This document shows positions 6,970-61,910 of a DNA stretch of 64,000 nt, piece after piece; positions within the stretch are counted from its first letter, which is position 1; every line of letters begins with the position of its first letter. Position numbers and translations under genes: made by a program. The notes beneath the pieces were generated by a model. It was not told the origin of the DNA. It saw only the letters and a list, made by a program, of their open reading frames with translations, and searched no databases. The stretch is from Bryoerythrophyllum caledonicum (Eukaryota; Streptophyta; Bryopsida; Pottiales; Pottiaceae). The stretch covers positions 22,497,022 to 22,561,021 of the forward strand of contig OZ020524.1 in NCBI GenBank assembly GCA_963971425.1. The letters run 5' to 3'.

Positions 6970-8303
6970 TCACTACACTGCATTAAGTTTGAGCTCGTGC
7001 TAACATCGACGGCAATGAACAATTCGACAAATTAGCAAAGGAAGGTTGACTGAAAGCCTACTCAGATGCCAAACACCCCTACGAACACGCTTATGCCACC
7101 CCATACTACTTTCATAGATACGACTGGCCTTTTATGGACAAAACCCCCGACGAAGGCCTAATAAGATTCTTGGATAAATACCTCAAAAAATACAATCTAA
7201 AAAATATTTGGAAACCCTTACCGGAAAAATCTTTAATATTGATAATTGGACCGGAATTACAAACATTGACAACAAATTCTCCACCAATTTTTGGATAAAC
7301 CCCATAATCACGGACTCTCAAAAAACATGTTTAGTCAAATTCAGCATTGGACAATATATGGGAAACTCCCGTAAACAACTCTTCTTTGGCATAGAAAGAT
7401 CCCCTCCATAACATGTTCAATATGTAACACTACAGAACCGGACACATGGCTATGCATTTTACTCAAATGCCATAACCCTCATATGCATGCCCTAATTGTT
7501 AAACGCCACAACAAAGCAATGTGGGCGATTCGTAAATTAATTGTGTCATCAAACAAATCCCATTGTTTCTTCGTCAGGAATGCCCGAACCTTTAATTACA
7601 ACCCACAAGAAAATACAATTCCTCCATCGTTATTACCTTGCGCATGCGGTCTTGAAAGTTGTCATTGTAATGCAAGATTTAAACCCGACATGTTATGTGC
7701 TAGAGGGCTACCATACAAAGACTCCCCACGAGCCAACATATACCTAAATCTCATTATTCAATTTATTAAATTCAAATATTGCAAAGACAAATTCTCACCA
7801 CAAGCTATTGCAAACAAAACAAATAAATACCAATCACTCAATGATATTCAAGCACTTGGATGGAAAGTAGACCCCCTCATTGTCATCACCGTGGGTGCTA
7901 AAGCCACCACCTTTACCCCCTCAATAACAATCCTTGAAGAAACATTCAAAATTCCCATGTCCTCAATCAAGACCACCTTCATAAATATTTACACTATTTC
8001 AATCCAACATGCTATGCCTATACTCTTATACAAAAGGAAATTGGAAAAGAACCAACCCAGCCCGGACACGCCTGACCTCCCATAAAAACCTACTAAACAT
8101 TTCATCGCATTAGCCCCCTCGATGTCATTGGTTCTTTGTTCTTGATTACTTGTTACATGGTACATAGTGTCTAGCCTCAAAAGGGGGAAGTAGTTCCATA
8201 CTCCTACTGCATGTCCAATGGACATGGACTTAGTGGTGGAATGAACAGACACTTTATTCATGCCGGCCCCCATCAGAAACCGGAGTATTTCTTCTTCTGT
8301 AAC
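6970..8303 (+). mobile_element. 5'-truncated LINE copy (RNase H end, CCHC, RLE, 3' tail)
   Basis: This copy is homologous to the 3' part of the complete LINE at 46379-61049. It enters inside the RNase H domain (ANIDGNEQ near 7000), runs through the linker (STNFW.NPII.DSQ.TCL at 7280) and the CCHC/RLE module, and ends in the shared 3' UTR with TTTATTCATGCCGG and TTCTTCTTC. Its frame is broken at least three times before 7483. It is a dead-on-arrival copy of the same family, too diverged to be a very recent sibling. Confidence 0.85.
7483..8085 (+). pseudogene. RLE-domain frame of the truncated LINE
   Basis: A 200-codon open segment giving the C-terminus of the LINE polyprotein. It holds the RHN motif of the CCHC region (VKRHNKAMWAIRKLI), the stretch NARFKPDMLCARGLPYKD, IIQFIKFKYCKDKF and NKTNKYQSL. 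The full-length copy has IEFTYC where this one has IKFKYC, so a likely catalytic Glu is lost. The frame carries CAA where the full-length copy has TAA (47644). No start codon is expected. Confidence 0.75.
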
Positions 8304-8520
8304 TCCTAAAATTTACAGATATCTCCAATATTCCACATAATTCCAAGTTACATCTATTGCAACATAGTAGATGAGACAAGTAAAAGCACCTCCTTCAATA
8401 GAAAGGAACCCTATTCAAGTGGTAACTTTAAAACATCCACAATGACTACAAGTGTCATCTTTTCAAAGTATTTTGCCTAGTTGCATACACTTAGGGGTTA
8501 ATTAAGCAATTGAATAAGTT
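8304..8520. other. Short AT-rich spacer, nothing recognised
   Basis: Lies between the truncated LINE and the stop codon of the amidase terminal exon; presumably contains the amidase 3' UTR. No clear polyadenylation signal was assigned. Confidence 0.3.
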
Positions 8521-28516: not shown

Positions 28517-30225
28517 CTACGAGTAGACGGTGTCAGGCTTGACCTCGAGGATTTTGATGATGGATGCGACGCCGATGCGGTGGAGTGCGACGATGGAGTC
28601 GCCCACGAGGCAGAGGCCGCGGTTGAGCGCGTACGCGATGGCGGTCTTGAGGATCTCTTCGGTGGACTCGGAGTCCGTGGCCTTGACGGAGCCGTCGGCC
28701 AGGAGAGGGATCAGCCCGCGGCACACCAGGCTGTGGTGTGCGGGGGCCGGCTCGCTGCACTCCCAGGTCAGACTGTCCGTGGTCATGACGGGCACCGCGA
28801 CAGAGAGGATGGGCACGTAGGGGCGGTACTTAGCCACCAGCCTCGCGGTGCTGCCGCCGCGGGTTAGCACGATGATGAGCGAAGCGCGCACTTTGTTCGC
28901 GGTTCGGACTGCGGACGACGCCAGGCTCTCCAGCGGGCTCATCGGCAAGGGTACTGACTTCATGATATCCCTGAAGATGGACCCGTAGTCGAGGGCCGCC
29001 TCCGCCTCCTGGCAGATGCGCGACATCACCGCCACCTGCAGAGAGCCACCCGCTCGTCAGGTTGAGCAACGAGGTTGATAAACGAGGTGAGGTGAGGAGT
29101 TACGTACTGCAAGTTCAGGGTAAGAGCCGTTGGCCGTCTCGCCGCTGAGCATCACGGCGTCTGTGCCATCGAGAACGGCGTTGGCGACGTCTGTGGCTTC
29201 TGCGCGAGTGGGGCGGGGCGACTTGATCATCGACTCCAGCATCTGGGTGGCCGTTACCACAGGCTTTCCCACGGCGTTGCACTTGTAGATCATCATCTTC
29301 TGCGCCAGGAAGATCTTCTCCGTGGGAATCTCCATCCCCAGGTCGCCTCGCGCCACCATCACCCCGTCCGTCTCGCGCAGGATGTCGTCGAAGTTCACGA
29401 GCCCCTCCTGATTCTCCACCTTGGAGATGATGTGGATGGAGCTCGACGCCTCGCCCAGGAGCTTCTTGATTGCGACCACGTCGGAGCCCTTCCGGACGAA
29501 GGACGCGGCGATGAAGTCAATCTTGTTGGGGACGCCCCAGTTCATGATGTCGTCGATGTCCTTCTCGGTGATGGTCGGGAGGTCGACCACCACGCCGGGC
29601 AGGTTCACATTCTTCTTCTCGCCCAGCATGGCCGTGTTCTCGCATCGGCACTTCACCATACCCCTCGCAGCGTCGCACTCCAGCACGGTCAGCGTGATGC
29701 TCCCGTCCGAACACAGGATGGTGTTCCCGGGCTCCAAGTCCACCGCCAGCTTCTTGTAGCTCATGGCGATCATGTTCTCGTCGCCCTTGTGTGTGTAGTC
29801 CGTCGTGATCCAAATTTCCTTGTTGCGCACCAGCTGGATGGGCTTCCCAGTCGCCAACTCCCCGGTTCGAATCTCAGGCCCCTGTCAGAGATCCCAACGA
29901 AGGTTTACCAAGCTCACGCGTTGGGACATCATGGACCATGGTAAGGAGATTGTCGTACCTTGGTGTCCAGGAGCACGGCGCACATGGTCTGCGTGTTGTG
30001 CATGGCCTGGCGCAGGTTGTTGAGCGAGTATTGCTGGTACTCGTGGGTTCCATGCGAGAAGTTGAACCGGGCCACGTTCATGCCGGCTCTGAGCAGCTTC
30101 TCCAGGACGGGCACTTCTCTGGACTTGGGCCCCAAAGTGCAGACGATCTTCGTCTTGGCGATCTTGCAGTGGCCATCGTCCGGTGTGTGTCCCAATATGT
30201 GCGGAATGTTTGCCTTCGTGGCCAT
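28517..30225 (-). CDS. PK: Cytosolic-type pyruvate kinase
   Basis: Three coding exons (30225-29959, 29881-29108, 29035-28517) give 519 residues in one unbroken frame, the usual size of plant cytosolic pyruvate kinase. The enzyme converts phosphoenolpyruvate and ADP to pyruvate and ATP, the last step of glycolysis. Visible motifs: [12 protein letters not shown] near residue 21, RFNFSHG near 54, the family signature [10 protein letters not shown] near 240, GDLGMEIP near 268, ATQMLESM near 300 and [10 protein letters not shown] near 335; the C-terminal domain includes [16 protein letters not shown]. The start MATKANIPH lacks a plastid transit peptide. An in-frame stretch upstream (FLLSEEEVEQSHQD) follows an acceptor-like site at about 30270, suggesting a 5' UTR intron. 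Exons are much richer in GC than the introns and flanks. Confidence 0.92.
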
Positions 30226-30389
30226 GTCTTGATGGCTCTGCTCCACTTCCTCCTCAGACAACAAAAACTGTACACAAGAGAAAAACAGAACTGGGGACAT
30301 CAAATACATGCAGATTTCTAGACAATTTCTGCTCTGAAGCTGCAACAATAGCGACCACGCTCTTGCATTTTCGTCGCAGAAATTCCTCA

Positions 30390-30860
30390 TTCGTCTCTGA
30401 AGATAGAAACTGGCCAGACGATGGAACTCTCTCGCCAAGACATCATCATTCGGAAAGCGAAACTCGACATTGCAGATGCATGCGCCTAGTCAACAAAGAG
30501 AAACAAGCTCCAAGAGAAAATATAAGCCCTTGTTTCCAAGTTCCACAGCTTCTTGAAACCGCTTTCTAAAGCTGCGACAAACCAACTCCATATCCCGCAC
30601 ACAAATTCATACAACGCCTTTCATTATTTCTGAAGATAAAGTTCAAGGTTTGAACTATCGAAATGGACTCTCGCTTACATTGACAAAACACCGTCACTCA
30701 GAAAGTTAACGTCCACTTTGCAGATGCATGCGCCCATTCAAAGTAGGGAAATAAGCACCATGAGCCCTAATTCTCCGAATTCTACAGCTTCGTCACTGCT
30801 TGAAAACGCTCAGAATCCTTCGCATTCTCGTTCAGGAACACGGAGGAGCATGGCTTGCAA
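30390..30860 (-). repeat. Diverged tandem duplication in the pyruvate kinase 5' leader
   Basis: Two units of about 235 bp share TCTGAAGATA, TGCAGATGCATGCGCC, AATAAGC and TTCTACAGCTTC words. They lie upstream of the coding start, probably in the 5' UTR intron or leader. Confidence 0.45.
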
Positions 30861-46366: not shown

Positions 46367-46378
46367 AATATAAATTGC
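46367..46378. other. LINE target-site duplication, left copy
   Basis: AATATAAATTGC, identical to 61050-61061, placed exactly at the outer end of the GAA tract. Confidence 0.85.
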
Positions 46379-46380
46379 AA

Positions 46381-46917
46381 GAAGAAGAAGAAGAAGAAGA
46401 AGAAGAAGAAGAAGAAGAAGAAGAAGAAGAAGAAGAAGAAGAAGAAGAAGAAGAAGAAGAAGAAGAAGAAGAAGAAGAAGAAGAAGAAGAAGAAGAAGAA
46501 GAAGAAGAAGAAGAAGAAGAAGAAGAAGAAGAAGAAGAAGAAGAAGAAGAAGAAGAAGAAGAAGAAGAAGAAGAAGAAGAAGAAGAAGAAGAAGAAGAAG
46601 AAGAAGAAGAAGAAGAAGAAGAAGAAGAAGAAGAAGAAGAAGAAGAAGAAGAAGAAGAAGAAGAAGAAGAAGAAGAAGAAGAAGAAGAAGAAGAAGAAGA
46701 AGAAGAAGAAGAAGAAGAAGAAGAAGAAGAAGAAGAAGAAGAAGAAGAAGAAGAAGAAGAAGAAGAAGAAGAAGAAGAAGAAGAAGAAGAAGAAGAAGAA
46801 GAAGAAGAAGAAGAAGAAGAAGAAGAAGAAGAAGAAGAAGAAGAAGAAGAAGAAGAAGAAGAAGAAGAAGAAGAAGAAGAAGAAGAAGAAGAAGAAGAAG
46901 AAGAAGAAGAAGAAGAA
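46381..46917. repeat. (GAA)179 / (TTC)179 microsatellite, LINE 3' tail
   Basis: 537 bp with no interruption seen. On the element strand it is a TTC tract directly after the 3' hairpin, replacing the usual poly(A). Other copies of the tail end in two to five TTC units (about 480-495, 8290-8298, 54752-54765), so this tract has expanded greatly. The poly-Glu, -Lys, -Ser and -Phe frames of over 200 codons across it are artefacts. Confidence 0.97.
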
Positions 46918-47163
46918 CGCCAGCTCCCGAAGGGAACCGGCGTGAATAAAGTGTCTGTTCGTTCCATTGCTAAGACCATGCCCACCGGACAAGGAATCAG
47001 CGAACTGGAACTACTTCCCCCTTTTGAGGGTAGACACTATGTAACGAGTAGCCAGAAACCAACCAACAAGGACCAACCACGACCAAACTAACTAAACTAA
47101 CTAAACAACAAAAAACAAAACCAAACAGGCAGCCAATCAGAAAGAGACAGAGTGGCGAAGTTC
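46918..47163 (-). other. LINE 3' UTR with conserved tail and hairpin
   Basis: Element strand: TACCCTCAAAAGGGGGAAGT near 47010-47030, GGAACGAACAGACACTTTAT, then CGCCGGTTCCC-TTC-GGGAGCTGGCG (46918-46942), an 11-bp stem allowing two G-T pairs. These blocks recur in the truncated LINE and in the SINE-like repeats. By analogy with stringent LINEs it is the likely recognition site of the element's reverse transcriptase. Confidence 0.7.
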
Positions 47164-47860
47164 CTAAGGGGGGTCTTGCCTATCAGGGAGGACTTGGTTG
47201 TTTTTGACTTTGCGTTTATGCAGTAAAATAGACATGTCATGTTGAATAGCGATGGTGTTGATATTTTTAAAGGTAGTTTTAATTGTATCAATGGGTATCT
47301 TGAAGGTATCTTCGAGAGTTTTCATAGATGGGATAAAGGTGGTGGCACGAGCGCCGGATGTGATAACAATAAGGGGGTCCACATTCCAGCCGAGGGCAAT
47401 GATGTCGTCTATGAGGGGTTGGTATTTATCTATTTTGTTTTGTATTGTTTCCGGGGAGAATCTATCGTTGCAATATGTAAATTCGATGAATTGAATGGTG
47501 TAGTCTTGGTTGATGTTCTCGGGTGGTGGGTCGTTGTATGGTAAACCTTTGACACAAAGAATGTCCGGTTTGAGCCTAGCGTTGCAATGACATCTTTGGG
47601 TCATACATGAGCATGGAAGTAGCCATGGGGGGACCGTGTTTTCTTATGGATTGCTATTAAAAGTGCCGGCGTTCATAAGTATGAAACATCTCGATTTATT
47701 GTAGGAGGTGATTAGTTTTCGGACTTCCCATACCGCTTTGTTATGTCTTTTAACAATTAGGGAGTGTATGTGGTGGTTTTGGCATTTGAGTAGCACATGA
47801 AGCCATGTGTCGGGGTCCGTTGAGGGGCATATGGGGCATGTTATGGATGGGAATCTTTCT
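47164..47860 (-). pseudogene. CCHC plus restriction-like endonuclease (RLE) module of the LINE
   Basis: A zinc-knuckle-like segment (CPICPSTDPDTWLHVLLKC followed by VKRHNKAVWEVRKLI) has the C-x2-C...H...C...RHN arrangement that precedes the RLE nuclease in R2-type LINEs. After it come NARLKPDILCVKGLPY, IQFIEFTYCNDRF and NKIDKYQPL, corresponding to the KPD...E/D...K..KY core of PD-(D/E)xK-like RLE domains. The frame is shared with RNase H. One TAA at 47644 interrupts it, where the other LINE copy has CAA. The domain would nick target DNA. Assignment is by motif and position, without alignment. Confidence 0.7.
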
Positions 47861-48189
47861 ATTCCAAAGAAGAGTTGTTTGCGAGCGTTTCCCATGTACT
47901 GACCCGTACGGAATTTGATGAGGCACGTTATTTGTGAGTCTGAGATGATGGGGTTTTTCCAAAAGTTTGTAGAGAGTTCATTGTCTATGTCGTTATTGTT
48001 AGTCCATTTTTCTATGTTAGGAATATTTTCTGAGATTGTATCCAGGTTGTTGTAGAGGTCTTGTTTTTTGAGATGTTTGCCCAGAAATCTAATTGGGCCT
48101 TTGTCGGGGGTATCTTCTTTGGAAGGCCAATCTTCTTTTTGAAAGTAGTATGGGGTGGCATGAGCATGTTTGTGAGGGTCTTTGGCATT

Positions 48190-48660
48190 TTTGTGTGTTT
48201 TTTCTCGGCCTTCTTTTGCAAGTTTGTCTGCTTGTTCGTTGCCATCAATGTTGGCATGGGCTCTGACTTTGTGAAGGGTTGTGATTTGTGTACGTTTTTG
48301 TAACATTTGTACCATTGATGTTAGTATGGTTTGGTCGGGGTGACTGTTGTGAAGGGTTGGGTGTGTTATTTGAGTGTTTAGTAGGTAGAGCGCATTTATA
48401 CAATCGGTGAATATATGTGCAGGTTCATTTTTGTATTTTGTTGTGATGATTTGTAGTGTTTTGTGAATGGCCATGAGTTCTGCTCTGAGGATATTTTGTA
48501 GTCCATGGAGTCTTTTGGCTAGTTTAATTTCTTTGATAGAATTATATATGCCATAGCCAGCTTTTTCTCTTCGCCAAGAGCCCGGGCTAATTTGTTCCGG
48601 TGGTTTAAAGGAGCTGTCGGTGTAATAACTGTATGCCGGGTTAAATTTTGGTGTGGTATG
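48190..48660 (-). pseudogene. RNase H domain of the LINE
   Basis: Four acidic motifs appear in the expected order: YSYYTDSSF, ILRAELMAIHKTL, AHIFTDCINALYLL and VRAHANIDGNEQADKLAKEG. RNase H would degrade the RNA strand after first-strand synthesis. It shares a frame with the downstream RLE module; upstream the frame changes in a run of A near 48910. Confidence 0.85.
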
Positions 48661-48889
48661 AGTTGGGTAGTCTGGGAGAGGGGGAGGTATGACAGAGTAG
48701 TTTAATGTGTTGTTGTCATAGTTTAATTTTGACCATTTTTTACTTTTGTTTACGGGGGTTTGTATGGGTGTTGGTGGGGCCGGTTTTGTGTATGGTCGTT
48801 GTATGGCTAGATTGTCTGTTATGGAGGTAAGTTCCGCAAGTTGTTCTAGGGAGCCCAGGTTTTGATTTTGATGATGGACGCATAGTATT

Positions 48890-50100
48890 TGTAATGTAGA
48901 TGGCTCTATTCGGGGTTTTTTTTAGCTCAGGTGGGATATTAGGTTCTTCGTATGGTATTGTGTCTGCTTCGAATAATGCAATGATGTGGGAATCTGGGAA
49001 TGAATTTGAATGTTGGTTGTTGTTTTGGTACCACTTGTTGTTCGGTGTGACGATGATTGTTTTTGTGTTATTTGGATCGTGTTTGGCGGCAAGTCTAGCC
49101 CAATGTATGGCTTGTTCTATGTCTTTCTCGTTGTGGGGGTGAGCTATTCCATTTCCGATCCATTTGTGTTCAAAGGCCTTGCCTAGGGATCCAAATATTT
49201 TGTCTCTTTCGTACGGTGAGTAGAATTTATTTAGTTTGGTAGGACATGTGATCGGGGAGGAAAAGTATGAGTGTTCGATGTTAAAGGATGATATTAGTGA
49301 GTCTAAAATGGGGGTGGGTATTGTGTATTGCGCATTTTTGAGGGGGTCAGTTTTTGGTATTCGATATTTATATCTTTGGTAAAGCCATATTATTTCGGTT
49401 TCAAAGGGTTGGGTTGTTGGTTCAATGTTTGTAGGGGTTTGTAATTTTGTATGATATTGGTTCCATAACCATTGGAGCCGGATAATGGGTATGGTGTGTA
49501 AATGTCGGCCGTTTTCTTCGTATAGATGTGCTTGATTGTTATCTATTTGAATTGTGTTTGAGGATGTAAGGATATCATTTTCGGGGTTGCATTCTGTTGT
49601 GTAGATGTTTAAGAGTGGGATAATTATGGGTGGCGTTATGGACCTTGAATCTGAGGATTGTTCTTGTGGATGGTGGGCAAGGATGATATCTGAGTATATT
49701 TTGTTTTGGATCTTTTGGTAGTATTGTTTTAATTTTTCAGTGTTATGTGTGGAGGTATTGGTGTCATGCCATAGAAAAAGGTCTCTTTGGGGGAGCCATT
49801 TATTGTATGTATTATCATTGTGTTGCCATTGGCATAGATATTTTGTGTAGGTATTTTGTATGTTATTTGTGTCTGTGTGTTGGATATGTTTATGGTTTAT
49901 GATATTATTAATGGGGTATGTAGTAGGGTTTTTGGGGATGTATGTTGGGGGGCGGGGGTGATATGTATGTGGAGGGTTAGGGGGATTGGTTGGTGTGGGA
50001 ATATTTCTTGGGATGATGTTATTGTTGAGGGTGATGAATGGATCTTTAAGTGTTATGAGAGTATGGGTGTATGTTGCAAGGAGTATGACATATAGTGGGG
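48890..50100 (-). pseudogene. Unrecognised region between RT and RNase H
   Basis: An open frame of about 400 codons begins near 50070 (after a TAA in the RT frame) and runs to about 48915. Its C-terminal part is the most protein-like: KAFEHKWIGNGIAH, DIEQAIHWARLAAKHDP, KTIIVTPNNKWYQN and HIIALFEADTIPYEEP. It then continues in another frame as LQILCVHHQNQNLGSLEQL after an A8/C4 run. I do not recognise a domain. The position matches accessory domains reported in Dualen-type elements, but an OTU-protease signature was not seen. Confidence 0.5.
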
Positions 50101-50149
50101 CATGTTATGTGGCAAAATAGTTGTTTAGCAACACTTAGGGCACTCTTTA

Positions 50150-52040
50150 TTAGTTTAGATGGGGTGAAGTGGTAGGTTTTGAAGTCCTCATTGTTCATGA
50201 TGTGTGTACCGTTAGGTAAGGTAATTTGGTTTAGTTCAAAAATATTTTTTGAGAGGAGTTTTTGTAGAAGCTTTTGGGAGAGTTGGGCATTGAGTGTGTT
50301 ATGATTTAATGTTTCTTGGCGCCATAGTATTTCTAGTGTTGTAGGATTAGTGAGGAAGTTCGGGAGCGTACTTTTAAGGTGGGCTTTAGCTATATGTTTT
50401 AATAAGAAGAATGTTCGTGTTATTGGTGATCTTATGCAGTCATTTTTTTTAATTCTCGGTATGTTTTCAGCGCCACCATATTGGGCAAGGACATAGTGAG
50501 TTAATCCATTATATATTTTCCCAAGTCTTCCTTTATCGTTTAGAGCATTTTACAGTTGTTCGCCTATACATCGGAGATATGCATTTTTGAGGGAGAAAGC
50601 TTCAAGTCCAAATAGGTTATGTGGTAGTTGGGTTATTGCGTTTGACATACATTTTGGTAATCCACATATGGTTTTTTGTATGGCTATTATTTTTTTATCA
50701 AGTTTTTTGATAGCTGGCATAGAGTATGGTACACCGTAGAAACTGTATGCCACACCTGGGCGTAGTACGGTATCAACCATTTTTATTTTTTGTTTCATGG
50801 TGGCTGGGCATGTTGTAAGTTCTTTGCATTGTTTGATGAGTTTTGTCGTTGTGGTGTGGATTTGGATTTTCCATTTTAGTGAGGGAACAAGGTTTGTGCC
50901 TAAGTATATGTATGGTTCATTTTGGTGTAGTATGGGGATCGGTTGATTGCGGCAATTGATGTTCGAGGCTTGCATTAGGGCTTTGAAAGTGGTAGGATTC
51001 AATTTAGATTTGTTTGGGCAACCGGTAGCGGCACATTTTGGGACACCTACGTCCATACCAGCCCATTTACAATATCTATGAATTTTGTTTAGTTGTATTT
51101 GGATTGATTTGATTTTGTTAGTTATGGTGGCTAGGTCATCCGCGTATGCGGCAGAGTTTATTATGACCTGTGATGTGCCAAAAGTGTATCCGTACTTTCT
51201 TCTTTCTAGCCGTCTGAGTAGTGGTTCTAGAAATATAATGAATAGGTATGGGCTGAGGGTATCCCCTTGTATAGTTCCTCTTTGAATGGGTATAGGTTTT
51301 GTTTTCCCAAAGTGTTCACCAGTATAACATGTAGATGATTTAGAATAGATGTTTCCAACAAGTGTAGTTGCATCTTTTGGGTAACCAAGGTCCATCATTA
51401 TTGCTAAAAGTCGGGCATGGTCAATTGAGCCAAAGGCATTTTTGAAGTCCACGTATAGTATGTATATATCTTGGATAGTAAACTTTGCGTCTTCTAGTGC
51501 GGCAATTATAGTTTGTATTTGTCGTGCGGTACTTCTCTCTGCTCTAAATCCTTCTTGACTATCATGTAGGATTTTGAATTTTTCGCCGTGTGAGGATAGT
51601 ATGGAGGTGAGTGTACTGGTAAAGAGTTTGTATATTGTGTTAGCTAGTGCAATTGGTCTATGGTTGGGTAGTATGGACGGGTCGCCTTTTTTGTATAGTA
51701 GAATTGTTGTACTTAATTTCCATGAGTTTGGTATCTGTTTTTGTTTATAGGAGTGGGAGAAGAACAAAAATAATAGCTTGTGAAATCTTGGAGGCATGTT
51801 TTTTAGTATTGAGTTTGGTATGCGGTCTGGGCCTGGGGCTTTATTGTTTCCAAGATTTTGAAGGCATGTGTCGTATGTGGCTCTGTTGAGGTATTTATGA
51901 AGTGGAATTTCTGGTTCGCCTCGTTTGTCAAGGGTATATCCGTCCAGGTCATGCCAAGGGTATTGGCGTATTGCACATGTGCATTCTATTGTATGTTGTG
52001 GCTGGTAATTACATGTTAGTACTGTTGGTCTATTGGTTTT
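50150..52040 (-). pseudogene. Reverse transcriptase domain of the LINE
   Basis: The frame is in phase with the upstream endonuclease and contains the LINE RT motifs in order: NNKAPGPDRIPNSIL, WKLSTTILLYKKGDP with NHRPIALANTIYKLF, QEGFRAERSTARQIQ, LYVDFKNAFGSIDHARLL, RGTIQGDTLSPYLFIIFLEP, and the catalytic SAAYADDLATI near 51150. The thumb region continues past a TAA at 50550. TAA stops at 52044 and 50550 (CAA in any intact copy, by inference) interrupt it. Confidence 0.92.
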
Positions 52041-52689
52041 TGTTTATTGGTTAAATATTTCATTCGCAATGTCTTCGGGGCTAGTTAGAATATTATTATA
52101 TTGATCTTTGATACAATCCATTGGTGGGGATTCAAGGTTTTTAAAGACTTTTTTGTTAATTTTTTTGGGGCTGATTTCATATAGTTGTCTGTATTTTGAG
52201 ATGGCTTTTTTAATGTTTTCTTTTGTGTATTTTGTGATTATTTTCCGGGCTTGTATGTTGGCATTTTTTGCAATTATCGCGATATCATTTATCCATGTAT
52301 CGTGGGGAAGGTCCGGAGGCGGCGGGGTAGGAATTTGGATGTGTTGTATAGTTAGTAGTTCGTTGTGTATGGGGTGGTTATGCCATTGAGGGTTGTTTTT
52401 TACAATTCTAATGGTTTTACATATGGTATGGTATGTGGTTAAGTGTTGTTTCCAAGTTTTAGAAAGTTTGCGGGGTAGATATCCGCCTTGTTGAGAGGTT
52501 CTGTTTGTCATTTGGGGTATTGGGTGTGCTCTACAAGTTTGTTCTAGTGTATCAGAGATTTTATTGATAAGTTTGTCTAGAGAGTGGCATGCTTCTTGCC
52601 ATTGAGCTTGTGTTAATTGGTTATTGTTTTCAAGAATGTTTATGAGGGAGTCTATTTGTACGGAGTTTTCTTCGAAGAATTTTGTGTTG

Positions 52690-53967
52690 AATTTTTCTAT
52701 GTTGGTTTTTGGGATGGGGTTGAGTATGAGTATAGTGTCTTTGTTTGGGATTGTAGGAGTTCTACTAATAAGTGTGTTATTTGGGATGTGCAGTTGTACG
52801 GGTGAGTGGTCCGAATTGAGAATAGTATCTTTGTTTGTTGTGGCGGTGTATTGTGTGTTGCTGTTTGTATTTATATAGAAACCATCTATTAGACTCCAAT
52901 CATTATAATTGTAGCCACCTTGTCTAGAGAATTGTGTATCGGTATTGATGTAAGTGAGGTTTAAGTTTTCTGTGAAGCGGCGCCATTGGTAATCAATGTT
53001 TTGAGGGGGGTTGTGGTGGTTTCCATTTTGGCGGCCAATTAGCGCTATGTCTCTATTGAAGTCTCCACATAATAGGTATGTATGATTGGGATGATTATTA
53101 ATATGGTTTGTAATAGTGTTTTGTATATCTAAGAGAAATCTAGTATCTTCGGGATGGGATGGCATATACATGTGAAAGATTAACCACGGTTGTAGTGGGT
53201 GATTAGTGATTTTAATTATTTGAATGTATGGTGATATGTGCATTGGGGTAGGGATTTTGTTGATGTTGCCGGGGAATGTATATTTTTTGTGTATTAATGT
53301 AAGGAGGCCACCGCGGCCCGGTGTGTATGGTCTCCTTTGATGCATGCATCTTGTAAGTGCATGTGTATTGTTAAAGATGAGTTTATAGTCTTGAAATATA
53401 TTTTGTATATATTTTATAGATTTTGTGGCGGTTAGTTTTGTTTCTTGTATAACTATAAGAGCCGGTGGTGTATCTGCGTTTGCGACTAGAGTTTGTAAGC
53501 TAGGAAGGGCAGTGTTTAGTGAGGAGGCATTCCATGTGATTATGTATGTATTTTCTTGGTTTGGTCTAATGTTTTGATTTTGATTTTGAGGAGGGATGTA
53601 GGGAAGAGGTGGGGGTGGGTGGGTGTATTCTGGTATAGGGTCTAGACATTTTAGTGATTCACTTATGAGGTTGTTAGGGAGGTAAGGGAATTTTAGTTTT
53701 ATTATATCATTTGTGGGTGGTATGTCTTGACTATGTAAGAAGTCGTATAGTCTTTTATGTATTGAGTTCTCATGGTTTATAATATTTTGGTTGTCTACTA
53801 GGAATTCAGTATAGGGGTGTGGAGTGTAAATGTGTCGTTCTGGTGGGTTTTGTAAGGTTAGTAAGGTTTGTAGGAGTGTATTAGTCCATGTAATTGTGTT
53901 CCAATTTTGTGGATTTAGAAGTTGGTTACATTCATCTATGTTTGGATGAGTAGTGATTATTAGTTTC
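52690..53967 (-). pseudogene. APE-type endonuclease domain of the LINE
   Basis: Open from 53967 with no stop to 52044. The apurinic-like endonuclease motifs are all present: YIITWNASSL near 53545, IVIQETKLT near 53450, LCGDFNRDIAL near 53065, NDWSLIDGFY near 52890, and NSDHSPVQLH near 52810. This nuclease nicks target DNA for target-primed reverse transcription. The preceding 130 residues are Pro/Asn-rich. The region is joined to the 2A-bearing frame only by an overlap of a few bases near 53960-53969. Confidence 0.9.
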
Positions 53968-54691
53968 TATTAAATGTGGGGTGGTGGATGCATATGTATT
54001 GGGCAATGTTTGGGTGGGAAGTGTTGTATATGTGGTGTAATGTATGTGTGTTTTTTAGAAATGGTGCGAAGGGTTTTGCAATGTGTTCATATTCTGGTTG
54101 GAGTTTTATGGTATTAGGTATAAAGTAGATTTTGGCATTTTTTTTATGTGATGTAGGATGTCTTTTTAGTATATTGGGCATGGGTCCCGGGTTGGTTTCA
54201 ATGTCTCCTCCTAGAAGTAGTAGAAGTTTGTGGTATATATGTTTAGTGGTGTATTTTAAAGGCTTTGTTGTGTTATTAATGACTTGTTGGTTTGGGGGTA
54301 GGTGGATGTTTGTATTTTGTGTGTGAGTTGTGGGTTTATTTATTTTTATAGTAGGTGTATTTGTTTTCGTCTGTAGTTTATTTTTTGTCCATGTGTTTTT
54401 TGTGGTTGTTTTTGTTTTAGAAGTGTATGGATGTATGTATGATTGGTTGTATTTTATCTTGGTTGTTTTTGTCCATGTGCATATGTAATTATTATGTTTA
54501 AGACTATTTGTATGTGGGTTTATGTTGGTTTTTAAAGTGGCTTTTAAGTCCTTTTTTTCATATGCGGTGTTATTATATACTTTGTGGTTTGTACAATTGT
54601 TTGTTTTGGTGTTTGTATTAGTATTTGGTATGAAATAAGTTTTGGCATTCTTTTTGTGCAAAACGGGGTGTCTTTTTAATATGTTCGGCAT
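53960..54691 (-). CDS. 2A-containing N-terminal segment of LINE ORF2
   Basis: A 243-codon frame, Asn/Thr/Lys-rich, with the 2A core at residues 160-170 or so. Before it is a hydrophobic run (IYHKLLLLLGG), typical of active 2A upstream context. After it comes MPNILKRHPTSHKKNAKIYF, an echo of the segment's own start (MPNILKRHPVLHKKNAKTYF), showing that the unit is a tandem duplication of about 600 bp. The true initiation codon is probably upstream of the nested insertion at 54692. Confidence 0.6.
   Translation of the reverse strand: MPNILKRHPVLHKKNAKTYFIPNTNTNTKTNNCTNHKVYNNTAYEKKDLKATLKTNINPHTNSLKHNNYICTWTKTTKIKYNQSYIHPYTSKTKTTTKNTWTKNKLQTKTNTPTIKINKPTTHTQNTNIHLPPNQQVINNTTKPLKYTTKHIYHKLLLLLGGDIETNPGPMPNILKRHPTSHKKNAKIYFIPNTIKLQPEYEHIAKPFAPFLKNTHTLHHIYNTSHPNIAQYICIHHPTFNRN
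54182..54208 (-). other. 2A-type ribosome-skipping motif GDIETNPGP
   Basis: Reads GDIETNPGP followed by Met, a perfect match to the D-V/I-E-x-N-P-G-P consensus, preceded by LLLLLG. In other LINEs and in viruses such a motif makes the ribosome skip the Gly-Pro bond, releasing two proteins from one frame. Here it would separate an N-terminal peptide from the endonuclease/RT polyprotein. Confidence 0.85.
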
Positions 54692-54765
54692 TTGGTCTTA
54701 GTAGTGGAACGAACAGACACTTTATTCACGCCGGCTCCTTCGGAGACCGACGTTCTTCTTCTTCT
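54692..54765 (+). mobile_element. 74-bp LINE/SINE tail insertion nested in the LINE
   Basis: Carries the shared tail (GGTCTTAGTAGTGGAACGAA, CAGACACTTTATTCACGCC, hairpin, TTCTTCTTCTTCT) in opposite orientation to the host LINE. It is flanked by a 10-bp duplication TGTTCGGCAT (54682-54691, 54766-54775). It interrupts the upstream 2A unit. Confidence 0.9.
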
Positions 54766-54775
54766 TGTTCGGCAT

Positions 54776-54802
54776 GGGTCTTGGGTTAGTCTCCATGCCT
54801 CC
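54776..54802 (-). other. Degenerate upstream 2A copy (GGMETNPRP)
   Basis: The homologous position of the upstream repeat unit reads LLILIGGGMETNPRP then MPN. The essential Asp and the Gly of NPGP are replaced, so skipping is not expected. A single G-to-A change accounts for the G-to-R substitution. Confidence 0.75.
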
Positions 54803-54889
54803 TCCAATTAATATTAGTAGTTTGTAGTAGATGGGTTTTTTGTTTTGTTTTAGAATTTTTTGTTTTTGAGTGTGGCTTTGGTATTTGTG

Positions 54890-57544
54890 TTATTTTGATT
54901 GTATGTGTTTGTCTTTGTATGTGTGTATGTATATGTATGTGTTTCGTTGATGGTGTGTGGTTGTCTTTGTGTGTGTGTATGTAGTTTTATGTGGTATTAT
55001 ATTAGTATTCTTTTGTATGATTGTATTAGTGTATGTCACGGTTTTTGTCTTGGTATTTGTATCAGTATCTTTGTTAGTATTTGTGTTAATATTCTTATGA
55101 GTACACGTACCAATATTTGTATTGGTATTTGCATTTGTATAAGTATAAGTATTTATATCAGTATACGTACCAGTATTTGTATCAGTATATTTATAATTAT
55201 ACTCATCGGTGTATGTATCAGTATAAGTATCAGTATACGTATCAGTATAAGTATCAGTATATGTACCCGTATATTGAAATAATGAGTATTCTAAAAGATT
55301 TATTTCTAAACATATTTTGTCTAAAACTATGATTTCTAAAAACAGATTGATATATATTTCAATCAGATTCGTATATATTCTTACTTTTATTAGAATTTCT
55401 ATTTTTAGTAAGTCTATTTTTTGCACCTTCGGCGCCCCCCCGGCCTGCGAGACATGACTCCCACCTCCAATTTTAGTAATTATACATACTCTCAACAAAT
55501 TTCTACTATTCAATCGCAAACTTTCCTCATCTTTATATATAACAATTTTAATATCACTATTAACTTTCCATTTATCCCTGTAGTTTATATTCCAATATCT
55601 ATTTTTAGTCTGTACTGTTATATTATTACTATCTTCTCTATTTATTTTTACTCTGAGATTCTTGTTTCTCATTACAAGTTTAGTTAATTTTCCATCCGTT
55701 ATTTTTGGATTTCTTAGGACGCTTAATCTATTTTTAGTACTGCTGTTTATAGCTATAGTCTTCCTATTTGTATTTTTATTATATCTCATTCGCATTACTA
55801 TTTTGGTGCATTTTTCATCCGTTATTTTTGAATTTCTTAGGAAGCATATTCTGTTTTTAGTACTTCTGTTTATAGCTATGCTCTTCATATTTGTATTCTT
55901 ATTATAATTAATTCCCATTCCTAATTTGGTGAACTTTCCATCCCATATTTTTGAATTTCTTAGGAAGCATAATCTATTTTTACTCCTACTGTTTATAGCT
56001 ATGTTCTTCATATTTGTATTCTTATTATAATTAATTCCCATTAATAATTTGGTGCATTTTTCATCCCTTATTTTTGAATTTCTTAGGAAGTGTATTCTAT
56101 TTTTAGTACTGTTGTTTATAGCTATGTTCTTCATATTTGTATTCTTATTATAATTAATTCCCATTCCTAATTTGGTGAATTTTCCATCTCTTATTTTTGA
56201 ATTCCTTAGAAAGCATATTCTATTTTTAGTACTGCTGTTTATAGCTATAGTCTTCATATTTGTATTCTTATTATATTTGATCTCCATTACTAATTTGGTT
56301 AATTTACCATCCCTCCTTTTTGAATTCTTTAAGAAGTACATACTATTTTTAGTACAACTGTTTATATCTATGTTCCTATTATTTGTATTCTTATGATCAT
56401 TAATTCTCATTACTAATTTTGTTAATTTTCCATCCCTGATTTTTGATTTCCTTAGGAAGCCTATTCTATTTTTAGTTCTGTTCTTTGTTGCTATGTTCTT
56501 ATTATTTGAATTTTTATGATAATTATTTCTCGTTACTATTTTGGTTAATTTTCCATCCCTTAATTTGGAATTTCTTAGGGAGCATATTCCCTTTTTAGTA
56601 CTACTGTTTATTGTTATGTTCATATTATTTCTTTTCTTATGATAATGGTTTTCTACTTTACCCTTTATTTTCTTCTTACATATCCTCTCCATTTTTGTTA
56701 TTTTATTTTTAATATTACTTGCTCTAATTAAAACCTTTGAAATTTTATAAATATCTATCTTCTTCTTATTTAATTTATTATATCTCTTCTTACTCTCCTT
56801 GATTTTCCTATTTTTAGCCATTTTATTATTCCTTGTCTTTTGATGGTTTTTAGGTTTAGAATCCCTTCTACCCTTATGTATCTTTATTACAAAAAATTTA
56901 TGATTGTTTTCATTTATATTGTTTCCTATTTTGTTATATGTAGTTATGATACTTATTTTCTCCTTCCTTCTATTATTTATTTTAATTCCATCTTTTCTCT
57001 TAATCCTTTTATTTTTTATTTTGGTTTTGATACTTTTCTTTTTGGAATTTTTACTTAGTTTGTGTGAGAAGTAGTATATTATTATTATCATTTTTTCTAT
57101 TTTGTGTATTGATTTTTGCGGTGGTTGATAAGTTGTTGTTTGAGTATTTATACTTATATCTGTATCCGTGTCCATATCCTTACTTGTATTTGTATTAGTA
57201 TTTTTTCGCGTACATATGTTTATGCTTGTATTCGTATCTGTACTTGTAGATGTATTCGTCTCTGTATTCTTATCTGTATTAGTATATGTCTCCGTATCTG
57301 CATATTTATCTGTATTCGTATGTGTACATGTCGCTGTATCTGTATACTTGTTCGTATATGTACATATGTTCCAATGTGTATATACGTATATTTTTTTGTA
57401 TTTAGTCGTGAAGGAAATACAGTATGTGTAGGGAAAATCAGCTATGTAGTCTATACTAGTATTGTATGAAGAGTCTAGACTGTATTGAATAGTATAATAT
57501 ACTAGGGGGTATGTATGAATTACTATGTGGTCTTTGAAGGTCAC
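54890..57544 (-). CDS. Lys/Asn-rich repeat ORF of the LINE, 884 codons
   Basis: Unbroken frame between ORF1 and the 2A segment. Its organisation is: an N-terminal Tyr/Ile-rich part, Thr/Asp/Asn-rich hexamer-encoded repeats (TDTNTS type), a strongly basic region (KKKIDIYKISKVLIR, MERICKKKIKGK), eight tandem 41-residue units each like FLRNSKIRDGKFTKLGMGIN plus YNKNTNMKNIAINSSTKNRI, then TYTD repeats. No known domain. The net charge is very basic, which would suit nucleic-acid binding. All eight 123-bp units stay open, hinting at coding constraint, but low-complexity AT-rich DNA can also stay open by chance. Confidence 0.5.
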   Translation of the reverse strand: MTFKDHIVIHTYPLVYYTIQYSLDSSYNTSIDYIADFPYTYCISFTTKYKKIYVYTHWNICTYTNKYTDTATCTHTNTDKYADTETYTNTDKNTETNTSTSTDTNTSINICTRKNTNTNTSKDMDTDTDISINTQTTTYQPPQKSIHKIEKMIIIIYYFSHKLSKNSKKKSIKTKIKNKRIKRKDGIKINNRRKEKISIITTYNKIGNNINENNHKFFVIKIHKGRRDSKPKNHQKTRNNKMAKNRKIKESKKRYNKLNKKKIDIYKISKVLIRASNIKNKITKMERICKKKIKGKVENHYHKKRNNMNITINSSTKKGICSLRNSKLRDGKLTKIVTRNNYHKNSNNKNIATKNRTKNRIGFLRKSKIRDGKLTKLVMRINDHKNTNNRNIDINSCTKNSMYFLKNSKRRDGKLTKLVMEIKYNKNTNMKTIAINSSTKNRICFLRNSKIRDGKFTKLGMGINYNKNTNMKNIAINNSTKNRIHFLRNSKIRDEKCTKLLMGINYNKNTNMKNIAINSRSKNRLCFLRNSKIWDGKFTKLGMGINYNKNTNMKSIAINRSTKNRICFLRNSKITDEKCTKIVMRMRYNKNTNRKTIAINSSTKNRLSVLRNPKITDGKLTKLVMRNKNLRVKINREDSNNITVQTKNRYWNINYRDKWKVNSDIKIVIYKDEESLRLNSRNLLRVCIITKIGGGSHVSQAGGAPKVQKIDLLKIEILIKVRIYTNLIEIYINLFLEIIVLDKICLEINLLEYSLFQYTGTYTDTYTDTYTDTYTDTYTDEYNYKYTDTNTGTYTDINTYTYTNANTNTNIGTCTHKNINTNTNKDTDTNTKTKTVTYTNTIIQKNTNIIPHKTTYTHTKTTTHHQRNTYIYIHTYKDKHIQSK
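55195..55275 (-). repeat. 12-bp tandem repeat encoding TYTD units
   Basis: Plus strand GTATCAGTATAC/AGTATCAGTATAA alternates about six times. A related GTATNN hexamer array lies at 57150-57370 near the other end of the same ORF. Confidence 0.8.
55700..56690 (-). repeat. Eight tandem 123-bp units
   Basis: Each plus-strand unit contains TTTCTTAGGAAG..TATTCT.TTTTTAGTACT and CTATG.TCTTCATATTTGTATTCTTAT. Divergence is higher at the outer units than in the centre, as expected for array growth by unequal exchange or slippage. Confidence 0.85.
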
Positions 57545-57636
57545 ATTTTTTGCTCGAGTCTTGGTTTGTAGACTATGCCCACAAAGGCTCTCATACGAAT
57601 GAGGTCTATCTATTAGTGTCTTGAGGTCTTTGAACT

Positions 57637-59286
57637 CTACGAGTTTGGTTGTGTGTTTTCTAGTCTAGGCTTCTTCATGCGACTATTGACGTCCTTCAAC
57701 GATGTGAGGACAAGGGACAAATTCTCTTCAAGGTTTAACAATTTCTCTGCCAGTTCCTCATGTCTCTGGTCAACATAGTCCCTGGTTTCTTGATGTAGCT
57801 TCTTGTTGCTTTCTTCCATTGCTTTCTCCACTATGTCTACGATATCCTCCTTGGAGATGTTGTTGGATGGTCCCTCTTGCATTTTGAAAGTTTCCACCGT
57901 ATTGACAATTGCGGTGTTGATATCTCCAAAGCCAAAAGACTTTATCAATTCCTCGGATGGGGGTTCAACTCCATTCAAGCTTCTGCGATGAGGGGCATAT
58001 TCCACATAGTTTCCTCCCATCATAATAGTCTTTCCCACAAATTGTTTATAAACAATTGGGTTTGTGCAGTGTACATTTACACTCCCATTGTGGCGATTGT
58101 TAACTTCCTTGTGAAACCAAATGGAGTTCACATTGGTAGCACCCATAGCCTTGTGAATTCCACCACTAACTTCCAAGGTACTCATTCGAAGGGGAAGTGG
58201 GGAGAGAGTAAGTGTCAATGCATCTTTTTTGGCCTTAGACTCCTGTGTGGTGCCCCCATTCGGTTTGGTTTGCTTGGCTTGTATGATTTCCTGTTGCGTG
58301 GTGACCTAGTGTAGTTGAATTTTAGCCGCCTGTTGTGGTGTGGTAGCCATAATAAATGCATGAGAATCCTCTTTGTACTTGTGCACCGCAGTGACCTCAA
58401 ATTCTTGTCCTCGCTTGAAGCTGTTCAATACTATGTCTTTGAAAAGGGCGTGCGCCGATGTCCCTATCAATGTATCACTCTTGATTTTCACCGATAGATT
58501 GGTGTTGCGTGAGATGTTGTGGCACGTCTTGCATACTTTGCCAATAGTGTCTTGCCCATCAATATTGAGAATAAAGTATCTCAAGCCCTTAAGTAGCATG
58601 ATTCCGTCCATTTCGGGTTTGAGTAAATGAAGTTTAATAATGCCAACCCATACACCTTTCTTGCCCCCTTGTTTGAGACTAAGGCAGTGTATTGCTATAG
58701 GCTCTATCAAGTCCGTTCCAAGTGGTATGTTCATTATTTCTAACCTTCTAGATACCAAATCCTTCACGTCATCATGCATGAGGGGGGAGGAGGGAAGTTC
58801 AAAATATATAGCAATTTGGAAGTCGTGAGACATACCTGTATCATTGTTGATGTTGACGTCAAATGGGAGTTGAGTGATATTATAGTGTTGACCCACCGTT
58901 CCTCTCCTTGACATCGGATAAAGCTCCTGTGGTGTATAAGGAAATGACATTTTTGCCTTGCTAGCCTCTTCTGCTTCATCCGCCTTGAAGCCTCTTGCAA
59001 TCAATCCTTCCACCGATTCCCCACTATAGCGCTCCTTACTGCCCTCCTCCATAGCGAGGGTGTCCATGGCTTGGAACCCTAACCAAAATTTGAAGTTAGA
59101 GAGAACTGGAGTTGAGATAGAAGGCATACCTTCACCATTTGGAGAGCATCTCATCTTCTTGTTACTGTTGATGTCTTCCCCCGATGTTATGGCCATGCTC
59201 TCCTTGTGTGCCACCTCCTTCTCCGTTGGGGTTTCTATGTCCATATTATCTCCAAGTTCCAGGTTTCGTCTGGCGTTCCCTGTCAT
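57637..59286 (-). pseudogene. LINE ORF1
   Basis: From MTGNARRNLELG at 59286 the frame runs about 550 codons to 57637 with a single TAG at 58306 (QLH*VTTQQE). The same frame stays open upstream to 60654 with Arg/Ser-rich low-complexity sequence that may be leader. The centre (DFQIAIYFELPSS, GVWVGIIKLHLLKPEMDG, LRYFILNIDG, KVCKTCHNI) looks like a compact RNA-binding-type fold, and the C-terminus (DIVEKAMEESNKKLHQETR onward) is a predicted coiled coil of about 60 residues. That order resembles ORF1 proteins of other LINEs, which bind RNA and trimerise. No exact domain was identified. Confidence 0.6.
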
Positions 59287-60654
59287 GATGATGGAACTGG
59301 AGCAATAGGGCTGGTTAGAGAAACTTACCTGAGTATTTGGTGGGGCTGGTGAGTCGAGGTTGTGGTTTGGTGATGAAGGTGAGTTGCGTATATCTTCTCT
59401 CCTGGTTGTTGTGGCGAGTCTGGTGCTCTCTCTTACTACTCCTCTCTTCTGTTGACTTCTTCTTGTTGAGGTTGTTGGCTGTTGTTTTTTGTTGCATTTT
59501 GAGCTGATTTTTCCTGTATCACCCCACACTTTGTTCTTCCCCCACTTCACCCAATCCATACCATTTTCAAGAGGTAGAGAACTTACCTTGAATGTCAGTA
59601 GAGATAGCTGTCGAGGTTGGGATAGACCTTGTGAGGAGTCACTTGCAGTTTGGAGATGACCTTGTGAGGGATCACCTGTTGTTCGCAGCTCGACTCTTCT
59701 TTTTCGAGATCGCTGGGTTTTTGCCTTCACGTCACTTTTTTGGCAAGGTCGGAGGTTGAGAGAACTGGAGCTGCTCCGATTTAACTTCGAGTGATGACTT
59801 GGATTTTCTCCACACTTTCTGCTTCCGCTCGCTCGTCTTGGGCCCTTCTGCCCTTCTTCGACTGTGCTTGCTCCCTTTGCTCCACTGTGATGGCACCTTG
59901 AACTGTGGTGAGCTTCGGTGCTTGGAGTTGGCCGGCTCTGGGTTCGTGGAGTGAGCGGTGCAACAGCTGTGAGTCGTTCTCTAATGATGATTCTTCGGTG
60001 TTGATGATTGGAGCTCTGAGGGTATGGTTTCGGAATAGCTGAGAATTGGCGACGGGGAGCAATTCGCTGTTGGTGATGGAGCGGCACCGGGTTGAAGTTT
60101 CGGCAGTTGTTGGCTTTCTGCTCGAGTGTGGGTGGTGGTCGGCACCTGTAGGCGGGGCGATCTCGACAAAAGTGTCGGTGTTGTTCTCCTTCGGTCCCAA
60201 GGAGGGGCTGCGCTTCTTTGTACTTGTTTCGGCACTTTTTCTTTCGTTTATTTCTAGGTTGCCTTCGATGCTGGAACTCAGTTGAGTTGCTGCCAGAGAG
60301 GGGTGCTCGTTTTTTCTTTGGTATGGTGCTCGTGTCGAGATACCTTGCCTGAAACTGCGTGCACAACTTTTGAGCGTCGTATCTATATGCGTTAGCCCTG
60401 CTGAAAATTCGCCAGCGCTTCCGCGTGCAAAGTACTCTACCAAAAACTTTGAATCTATTCCTATTTAGCTGGTGACTAAAGTGTGCGTTGTGCTGGATCG
60501 ATGGCCATGTGAGTGTGTATACTATTGTGGGTGTGGAGCCTGTGAGAGACGTGCATGCAAAAACTGATGGAGGGTTAGAGATAGCCTGGATCGATGTGCA
60601 GGTGCTGCAGAGCAGCAAAGCTTGTGCCTGAACTCTTGTAATTGTCGGTAGCAT

Positions 60655-61049
60655 CGACCTGGCTCGAGGAGAAACAGTGACTGCTAGCGAGGGGATGGAT
60701 CCGTTCCGTACCGCTTGGATATGGGCGGTAGTCTAGCGCAGTAGTTCCATGCGATCGCAGATCTGACCCCCAACACCTGTGTCCCACGCTTCAGAGCTAC
60801 CACGAGCAGATCCGGTACTGAAACTCTGCCGAACTACACCATTCCACTGACCAAGCGGAGCCCTCGCCAACACTCTCCCTTCCATGCATCCCTCACTTCT
60901 GTCGAAGATTTGTGTGTACAGGGGCTTCTTCGGCGAGTCTAGCTACCTCTCTCCGACTGCAACACAGTTCTCTGCGACTAAGTCATTGTTCTCCTCTCAC
61001 CAGGATTTACGGAGCGCCTAACTGCTCATTCTTTGAAAAAAAACCCTTT
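60655..61049 (-). promoter_or_regulatory. LINE 5' leader, probable internal promoter region
   Basis: GC-rich segment that begins on the element strand after GGGTTTTTTTTC at the target-site duplication. LINEs transcribe from internal 5' promoters, but no specific motif was identified here. Confidence 0.4.
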
Positions 61050-61061
61050 AATATAAATTGC
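61050..61061. other. LINE target-site duplication, right copy
   Basis: AATATAAATTGC, identical to 46367-46378. Confidence 0.85.
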
Positions 61062-61910
61062 ACTTGTTAGTTGCATTAGCTTCATATGATTGGCGTAGCC
61101 TATTTCTTTTTGATATTTTTGGAACACCCCCAATTTATCCTAGAATATTCTACTACATATTCTAGGAACTACATCTATGCTAATACTTTCCCCAAAACGC
61201 ATTCCAAGTTCTTCTTAACAGAGTATGCCCTACATGATGATGACTATGCACAAGGGTAGCTCCGGTAGATCAATCTAAATCATTCATGTTGATTAGTTAT
61301 TGTAGATCATTATTTGTCCTATTGAATTGTAAATTTTTTAATGCAATTCTATGGACCTCTTGGTTAAATTAGTTGTTCAACTTCAGTATAAGTACACTAA
61401 GGTACGCCACTTTTGATGTCACAATATCACACTTTTGGAACAATTTTATTTTAAAAGTACAAAAATGAGGAGAATTATATGCATGAATTTGGTGAAACAA
61501 CTGACATTACTAACGGATCCTATTGTCCAAGGGCAATTTGTCCTTTGTAATCAATATTTAGTTTCCTTGATCAAAATCACTAAAAACGGATAATTCAAAA
61601 AAAAATTGAAAATAGGTTTTTTACACTTTTGTTGGTTGATAGAGGAAGCTAGCAAGATTCTTTAGGTGGGCCAAATTTTCAAATAATTAGTTTGTTTTTT
61701 AAATAACTTCATATTTAAAATTATAAATTATTATTGTCACAATGTACCTTCTCTCAAGTTTAGCGTTCCACAAATTTCCTTGAGGAAGGGATTAAGTAAC
61801 AAAAAAATTAGGCCCACATGTAAAATCAAATTAACTTTCTCCACCAACCAACTAAAATGTTAATTTTTTTAATTGATTGAATTGCCCATTTTGCCCCAAA
61901 ATGAGTAACT
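61062..61910. other. AT-rich DNA, no gene seen
   Basis: No supported frame or recognised repeat. Confidence 0.35.

Follow-up and report, generated by a model that had tools for sequence, protein, structure and literature searches.

In the published sources drawn on here, non-long-terminal-repeat (non-LTR) retrotransposons of the Dualen/RandI type carry an apurinic/apyrimidinic-type endonuclease (APE) and a restriction-like endonuclease (RLE) in one element (PMC3636483). Such dual elements have served as an argument that APE took the place of RLE as long interspersed nuclear elements (LINEs) evolved (PMC4640811). The type has been reported for green algae only (PMC4438587), for relatives of Chlamydomonas (PMC8226300) and, by repeat annotation, for cryptophytes (PMC12747079), and the passages searched do not place it in land plants. 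RandI ends in non-A repeats in eight of eight families (Table 3 of PMC3747384). Here we describe a non-LTR retrotransposon of 14,670 bp in a 64,000-nucleotide stretch of the genome of the moss Bryoerythrophyllum caledonicum (contig OZ020524.1; this whole stretch is called the window below). Judged from its sequence, it is a land-plant relative of this rare type, most known cases of which come from green algae. The plastid genes psaA and psaB of the assembly agree with a moss host: their best matches are the structure entries 7ksq, 6l35 and 8htu (for psaB, 1695.1 bits, with 1661.8 for the next match), and 6L35 is linked to the moss Physcomitrella (PMC7884438).

We put the probability that this is an autonomous, recently active retrotransposon of the Dualen/RandI type, with a first open reading frame (ORF1) and a giant second one (ORF2), at a little under 0.9. 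As in Dualen/RandI, an APE lies upstream of the reverse transcriptase (RT), an RLE with a zinc finger lies downstream, there is an RNase H domain, and the 3' tail is a non-A simple repeat, here (TTC)n. The moss element differs in its land-plant host, its PCIF1-like domain, its size of 14-15 kb and the exchange of its ORF1. The boundaries and enzymatic domains are as follows (window coordinates).

46380-61049, minus strand: non-LTR retrotransposon, 14,670 bp between exact 13-bp duplications
46367-46379: target-site duplication, 3' side, AATATAAATTGCA, the same letters as 61050-61062
61050-61062: target-site duplication, 5' side, AATATAAATTGCA, the same letters as 46367-46379
54182-54211, minus strand: intact 2A motif GGDIETNPGP, a sequence motif
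52797-53540, minus strand: APE endonuclease, with WNASS at 53537-53514, QET at 53453-53436, GDFN at 53069-53049 and SDH at 52820-52797
50553-51797, minus strand: RT core, with YADD at 51152-51132 (Pfam RVT_1, 3.6e-28)
49031-49441, minus strand: PCIF1-like domain (PF12237, by Pfam), between RT and RNase H
48205-48640, minus strand: RNase H domain, with YYTDSSF at 48627-48607 and FTDC at 48411-48385 (Pfam RNase_H, 8e-13)
47167-47870, minus strand: RLE, with zinc finger CPIC..H..C, RHN, KPD, IEF and K..KY, and a stop at 47646-47644
RLE motif matches, minus strand: CPIC 47838, RHN 47751, KPD 47571, IEF 47490, K..KY 47439-47413

The APE, RT, RNase H and RLE motifs named in a preliminary description of the window all lie on the minus strand where it had placed them. 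Its exact target-site duplication is also present, at a length of 13 bp and not the 12 bp given there.

Copies of the element and their integrity

An initial search with 601 bp of the RT found 40 genomic places at 97-100% identity. We fetched ten sister copies, which with that of the window gives 11 copies compared; L009 was excluded from the choice of conserved stretches. Whole-genome pattern counts in the 437-Mb assembly, with two or fewer mismatches allowed and reversed patterns as controls, gave 547 3' ends, 872 RT segments, 306 2A sites and nine 5' ends of the window's own type, and 0 for each reversed control. For 24 of 74 exact 3' ends (0.03 expected), an exact 2A site was found at a distance of 7.12-7.31 kb on the same strand, exact matches having been listed on contigs C1-C4 only.

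Direct repeats of 11-15 bp were identified at the insertion in eight of the 11 copies, the window included; no such repeat was found in L009 or L023, and L027 could not be assessed. For the seven copies found by automated search, 0-3 of 200 shuffled controls reached the observed repeat length. The duplication of L011, which lies beyond the offset limit of that search, was spotted by reading and then checked. Seven of the 11 copies measure 13,807-15,446 bp between their repeats, in agreement with the earlier claim that the element is far longer than usual LINEs, and L015, truncated at its 5' end, measures 10,225 bp. The usual size of the element is 14-15 kb. Inspected by eye, the sequences on either side of the located insertions appear ordinary, and insertion specificity for microsatellites was rejected.

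ORF2 of the window copy is broken by stops at 52046-52044, 50552-50550 and 47646-47644, and its frame changes near 54.0, 50.1 and 48.9 kb. In the sister copy L025, the 2A motif, APE, RT, PCIF1-like domain, RNase H and RLE lie in one natural frame of 2,721 codons. L021 is open for 2,985 codons from the ORF1 overlap to the middle domain; from the coordinates of L025 and L021 together, ORF2 as a whole comes to about 3,500 codons between the overlap and the final stop.

The genome also contains a second family, which interrupts L027 on the opposite strand and shares 71% DNA identity with the first. Its PCIF1-like domain, RNase H and RLE lie in one frame of 1,311 codons.

Two endonucleases and their relatives

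The APE of the window scores above the curated Pfam cut-off for Exo_endo_phos in the window's own frame (1.2e-6; 28.9 bits against 24.5), where RVT_1 and RNase_H also exceed theirs, and that of L025 matches the same family at 4.5e-7. Exo_endo_phos_2 falls just under the Pfam cut-off in the window frames. The RNase H of L025 is matched by Pfam RNase_H at 1.3e-12. No Pfam family covers the RLE in the C-terminus of the window copy or of L025.

Among solved structures, the RT is most similar to R2 proteins (102.5 bits; 9nl2, 9dou and 8gh6), followed by an RT entry (64.4) and LINE-1 ORF2 entries (62.9), and the RHN after the zinc finger is a further, weakly matching likeness to R2. R2 elements are specific to ribosomal DNA and are not known to have an APE or RNase H. 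The moss element differs from this RLE-only group in having an APE, and from plant L1, with its poly(A) tail and APE only, in having a (TTC)n tail and an RLE.

The closest relative found is a protein of Haematococcus lacustris (P0002; QJQ45_029710), the strongest of three matches in a full-length search and alone in matching comparably beyond the RT. It carries a 2A-like DVEANPGP, APE, RT, RNase H, CPxC..H..C, RHN, RPD and VEIK, and its RT, RNase H, CPxC..H..C, RHN, PD and E modules align in order with those of the moss element. It differs in a Josephin-like protease (Pfam finds Josephin), a sub-threshold PHD finger, a canonical E-x-K and an RT that is 39% identical. In an unrooted RT tree of seven taxa (both moss families, Haematococcus, two R2 and two APE-only elements), the moss families group with the Haematococcus dual-endonuclease RT (SH-aLRT/bootstrap 96.8/97).

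The RLE is also similar. A profile of 32 moss-type RLE sequences without RNase H aligned with the Haematococcus C-terminus over 176 columns (hhalign P 1.6e-6), scoring 21.1 bits on the C-terminal piece and 16.2 on the complete protein; none of 2,000 shuffles scored above 6.0. With RT and RLE both matching the Haematococcus dual-endonuclease element, the proposal that a Dualen/RandI relative is present in this plant is supported, and in this small tree the RT does not group with the two APE-only RTs.

Across 63 aligned moss-type sequences, the H, N, E and helix K of the RLE are invariant (63/63), with P in 58 and D in 56. The proteins of the two moss families are 82.7% identical in the RLE core, 84.7% in RNase H and 76.4% in RT, and the ratio of nonsynonymous to synonymous substitution (dN/dS) is 0.094, 0.044 and 0.096, respectively; these ratios are rough because dS is near saturation. 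RLE and RT are under about equal constraint. The APE is 67% identical over 185 codons, with no computable dN/dS.

A profile of RNase H and RLE together matched 296 proteins at E<=1e-5; 68 of the best 120 cover the RLE, and 61 of these 68 form alignment A2, while alignment A7 holds 30 matches. A profile of the PCIF1-like domain matched 119 proteins. Given these numbers, related elements are common in sequenced material. A tblastn search against phages gave no match, and a pattern scan of viral contigs gave 110 matches, none of which was confirmed.

Several results weigh against placing the element in the Dualen/RandI type as an autonomous and active member. At least one break in ORF1 or ORF2 was present in all 11 copies inspected, and in seven copies the ORF2 frame opens with 348-489 nt that contain no ATG. 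A cysteine protease is said to belong to Dualen in its original description; a Pfam scan of the C-terminal 2,443 residues of the L025 ORF, which start before the intact 2A motif, found none, with the remainder of ORF2 lying further upstream. The RT tree is small, has no curated Dualen and joins one APE-only RT to the R2 sequences (94.9/97). We take this last placement as long-branch noise, and because of it the tree cannot settle the deep order. The RLE profile matched solved R2 weakly and non-significantly (R2Bm, 8gh6, E 1.4, over the zinc finger-RHN part only and ranking below an unrelated synthase at 0.42), and phmmer with the Haematococcus RLE alone found no R2. Lastly, the E-x-K of the RLE reads E-x-T in 62 of 63 moss-type sequences. 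Given its PCIF1-like domain, 2A motif and ORF1 exchange, and the cysteine protease that was not found, we regard the element as a variant and not a plain copy of Dualen.

These results bear on three alternatives. The broken frames of the window copy, and the one small insert nested in it (54692-54766), would suit a composite in which an RLE element inserted in or beside an APE element mimics a 14.7-kb LINE. The chance of this is negligible, and we rejected it: L025 has the single frame of 2,721 codons, collinear 7.8-kb matches are present in eight of the ten fetched copies (L009 is truncated and L027 interrupted by the second family), 3' ends pair with 2A sites at 7.1-7.3 kb, and seven copies of 13.8-15.4 kb each lie within their own duplications. 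The frame and the pairing of 3' ends with 2A sites likewise argue that the 3' third is no separate insert, a point the preliminary description had raised. It is very improbable that the element is an APE-only LINE (L1- or I-like) with a C-terminal zinc knuckle that resembles an RLE by chance. Such a LINE would explain why Pfam matches no RLE and why R2 matches are weak or absent, but the hhalign P value and the shuffle scores for the Haematococcus RLE led us to reject it, and the RT stands apart from the two APE-only RTs in the tree. We also doubt, less firmly, that the element is dual by descent only, its RLE having lost nuclease activity and been kept as a DNA-binding domain while APE makes all cuts. 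Because the lysine of E-x-K reads T, though the Haematococcus RLE has K, catalysis by the moss RLE is not certain; against its loss stand the invariant E and downstream helix K, the conserved P and D, and the dN/dS of the RLE core. In R2-type RLEs, too, the lysine has moved into the helix that follows (K..KY), and the moss-type clade has this motif. A Dualen/RandI-type element with both endonucleases remains the reading that we adopt.

A PCIF1-like domain between RT and RNase H

The middle domain matches PCIF1_WW (PF12237) in the window frame at 43.7 bits against a cut-off of 31.1, and is above cut-off in L025 and in seven of seven chosen relatives or pieces, several of them already so labelled. 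An earlier profile of seven sequences found RNase H only among solved structures. A profile of 47 sequences, searched against 177,635 Protein Data Bank (PDB) sequences, gave two matches at E<=10, both PCIF1 (6irx, E 0.0027, over only about 80 residues; 6irv, E 0.38). Alignment A6 holds 45 of the 119 PCIF1-domain matches. In the literature searched, as judged by titles and the beginnings of abstracts, PCIF1 was not joined with a non-LTR retrotransposon.

PCIF1 is a cap-adjacent adenosine N6-methyltransferase, and disruption of its NPPF motif reduces activity (PMC6318281). The element thus has the PF12237 domain in common with PCIF1/CAPAM, the cap N6,2'-O-dimethyladenosine (m6Am) methyltransferase whose structures were the only ones matched, but where PCIF1 carries the catalytic NPPF the window copy has AHPHN (49150-49127), the equivalence of the two places being our own reading. 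At the first position of this place, H is found in 45 of 47 sequences and N in none of the 47; NPPY occurs three times in relatives, at places well away from the motif. We infer a repurposed or inactive methyltransferase fold.

Alternatively, the middle domain could be an element-specific fold that resembles PCIF1 but is not related to it. The missing NPPF and the short reach of the match to solved PCIF1 are what such a fold would predict, but the PF12237 scores in the window frame and in all seven relatives or pieces, together with the fact that nothing other than PCIF1 was matched in the PDB search, make it improbable; we favour a relationship with PCIF1. Pfam does not match a PCIF1 domain in Haematococcus P0002. 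That protein has a faint PCIF1-like trace at the corresponding position (P 4.4e-4; 12.6 bits, with none of 2,000 shuffles above 9.5), and for this reason the domain may be older than the moss lineage.

A pair of PCIF1-like and RNase H domains also occurs in P0161, a protein filed under an archaeal metagenome-assembled genome (Candidatus Nitrosocosmicus). This is probably eukaryotic DNA in the archaeal assembly.

ORF1 exchange, termini and a model of insertion

The remaining parts of the element, and an insert nested within it, are listed below.

60733-61049, minus strand: 5' leader; the first bases past the duplication vary among four copies of the window's type
57640-60732, minus strand: ORF1, with one stop in the window copy; the final 25 nt are shared with ORF2, in the -1 frame
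54893-57664, minus strand: N-terminal part of ORF2, 924 codons open, Lys/Asn-rich
55666-56646, minus strand: eight tandem repeats of 41 residues (123 bp) within the N-terminal part of ORF2
54776-54796, minus strand: upstream 2A-like copy, with NPRP for NPGP; NPRP in eight of eight copies where it was seen
54692-54766, plus strand: nested 75-bp antisense insert of a related 3' end, between 9-bp repeats
54683-54691 and 54767-54775: the 9-bp repeats GTTCGGCAT, duplication of the nested insert
46918-46942, minus strand: 3' terminal RNA hairpin with a TTCG loop, a predicted fold, with two G-U pairs in the window copy
46380-46917, minus strand: 3' tail (TTC)n, about 180 units or about 539 bp, read from the sequence as a repeat

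ORF1 falls into three types among eight copies: that of the window, L011, L017 and L025; type B (L019 and L027); and type C (L013 and L021). Over the last 1.1 kb of ORF1 (a 1.27-kb stretch for L013), DNA identity is 92.6-98.5% within types and 61.7-64.7% between them. ORF2 is 97.3-98.5% identical over 7.9 kb among seven copies (L027 was left out of this alignment because of the second family that interrupts it), and the ORF1 grouping is absent there. Three ORF1 modules that are 35-38% apart are thus carried on nearly identical ORF2.

When types B and C are compared with L017, identity is at first about 0.5-0.6 and then, over one or two 200-nt windows, climbs to 0.86-0.94, at 2.6-3.0 kb upstream of the intact 2A motif. 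After this jump, type C stays at only 0.76-0.94 up to about 0.6 kb upstream of 2A, which indicates more than one clean switch. The common sequence of type B (L019 and L027) starts 34 bp inside the repeat, and L013 and L021 are alike from the last 1.5 kb of ORF1 onward, with no shared blastn match in their first 3 kb. We read the ORF1 exchange as likely recombination or template switching between element RNAs.

ORF1 runs for 1,031 and 1,037 codons from stop to stop in L017 and L025, and Pfam matched no family in three ORF1 frames, that of L017 included. In seven copies, the end of ORF1 and the frame of ORF2 share 25, 10 or 16 nt, always with ORF2 in the -1 frame. This -1 overlap (57640-57664 in the window) is kept across three diverged ORF1 types. 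L013 is the exception: its ORF1 frame continues for 1,481 codons without the -1 pattern, and it was excluded from the overlap table for that reason. By eye, no classical X XXY YYZ slippery site was seen at the overlap.

An intact 2A motif (D-x-E-x-NPGP) is present in nine of the 11 copies; L009 is without the region, and the motif was not found in L013. The first 2A-like copy always reads NPRP and the second NPGP. The nested 75-bp insert appears to be an extremely short retrotransposed copy, and it was not seen in other copies that match across the site.

At the 5' end, short sequences that differ among the four copies of the window's type lie between the duplication and the common 5' start. 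At the 3' end, the predicted UUCG hairpin adjoins the tail, and the second family keeps a helix with C-G pairs and one mismatch (by eye). Among the other copies, the 3' end is readable in nine, with tails of two units up to 288 nt.

Elsewhere in the window, 6846-8400 (plus strand) holds a 5'-truncated relative whose protein is 48-65% identical and which has RNase H-RLE remains of its own, a 3' end like that of the second family and a short TTC tail. The frames at 28517-30489 (minus strand) were read by eye as a plant-type pyruvate kinase gene.

We suggest the following course of expression and insertion. ORF1 (about 1,030 amino acids) would be translated first, followed by the giant ORF2 in the overlapping -1 frame, by frameshifting or reinitiation. 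The ribosome probably releases the N-terminal part of ORF2 at the 2A motif, leaving a single enzyme that comprises APE, RT, PCIF1-like domain, RNase H, zinc finger and RLE. Its RT probably recognises the UUCG hairpin at the 3' end and would prime reverse transcription from the target on the (UUC)n tail, where slippage could produce tails of two units to 537 nt. In the most likely division of labour, APE would nick the first strand and so prime cDNA synthesis, and the R2-like RLE, guided by the zinc finger, would cut the second strand or a branched intermediate. Cuts by both endonucleases would leave the duplications of 11-15 bp.

We offer a wider scheme more tentatively, considering it possible but, as a whole, unlikely. 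In it, the two nucleases work on different strands, a PCIF1-related domain, either captured or inherited from the algal ancestor, has been repurposed to bind the element's own capped RNA, and whole ORF1 modules are swapped onto a shared ORF2. Through the PCIF1-like domain, a LINE enzyme would be connected with cap biology, and the exchange of ORF1 shows the modularity of LINEs at high divergence. A recently active, high-copy family in a land plant, with a constrained RLE, would make the cooperation of two endonucleases in a single insertion testable.

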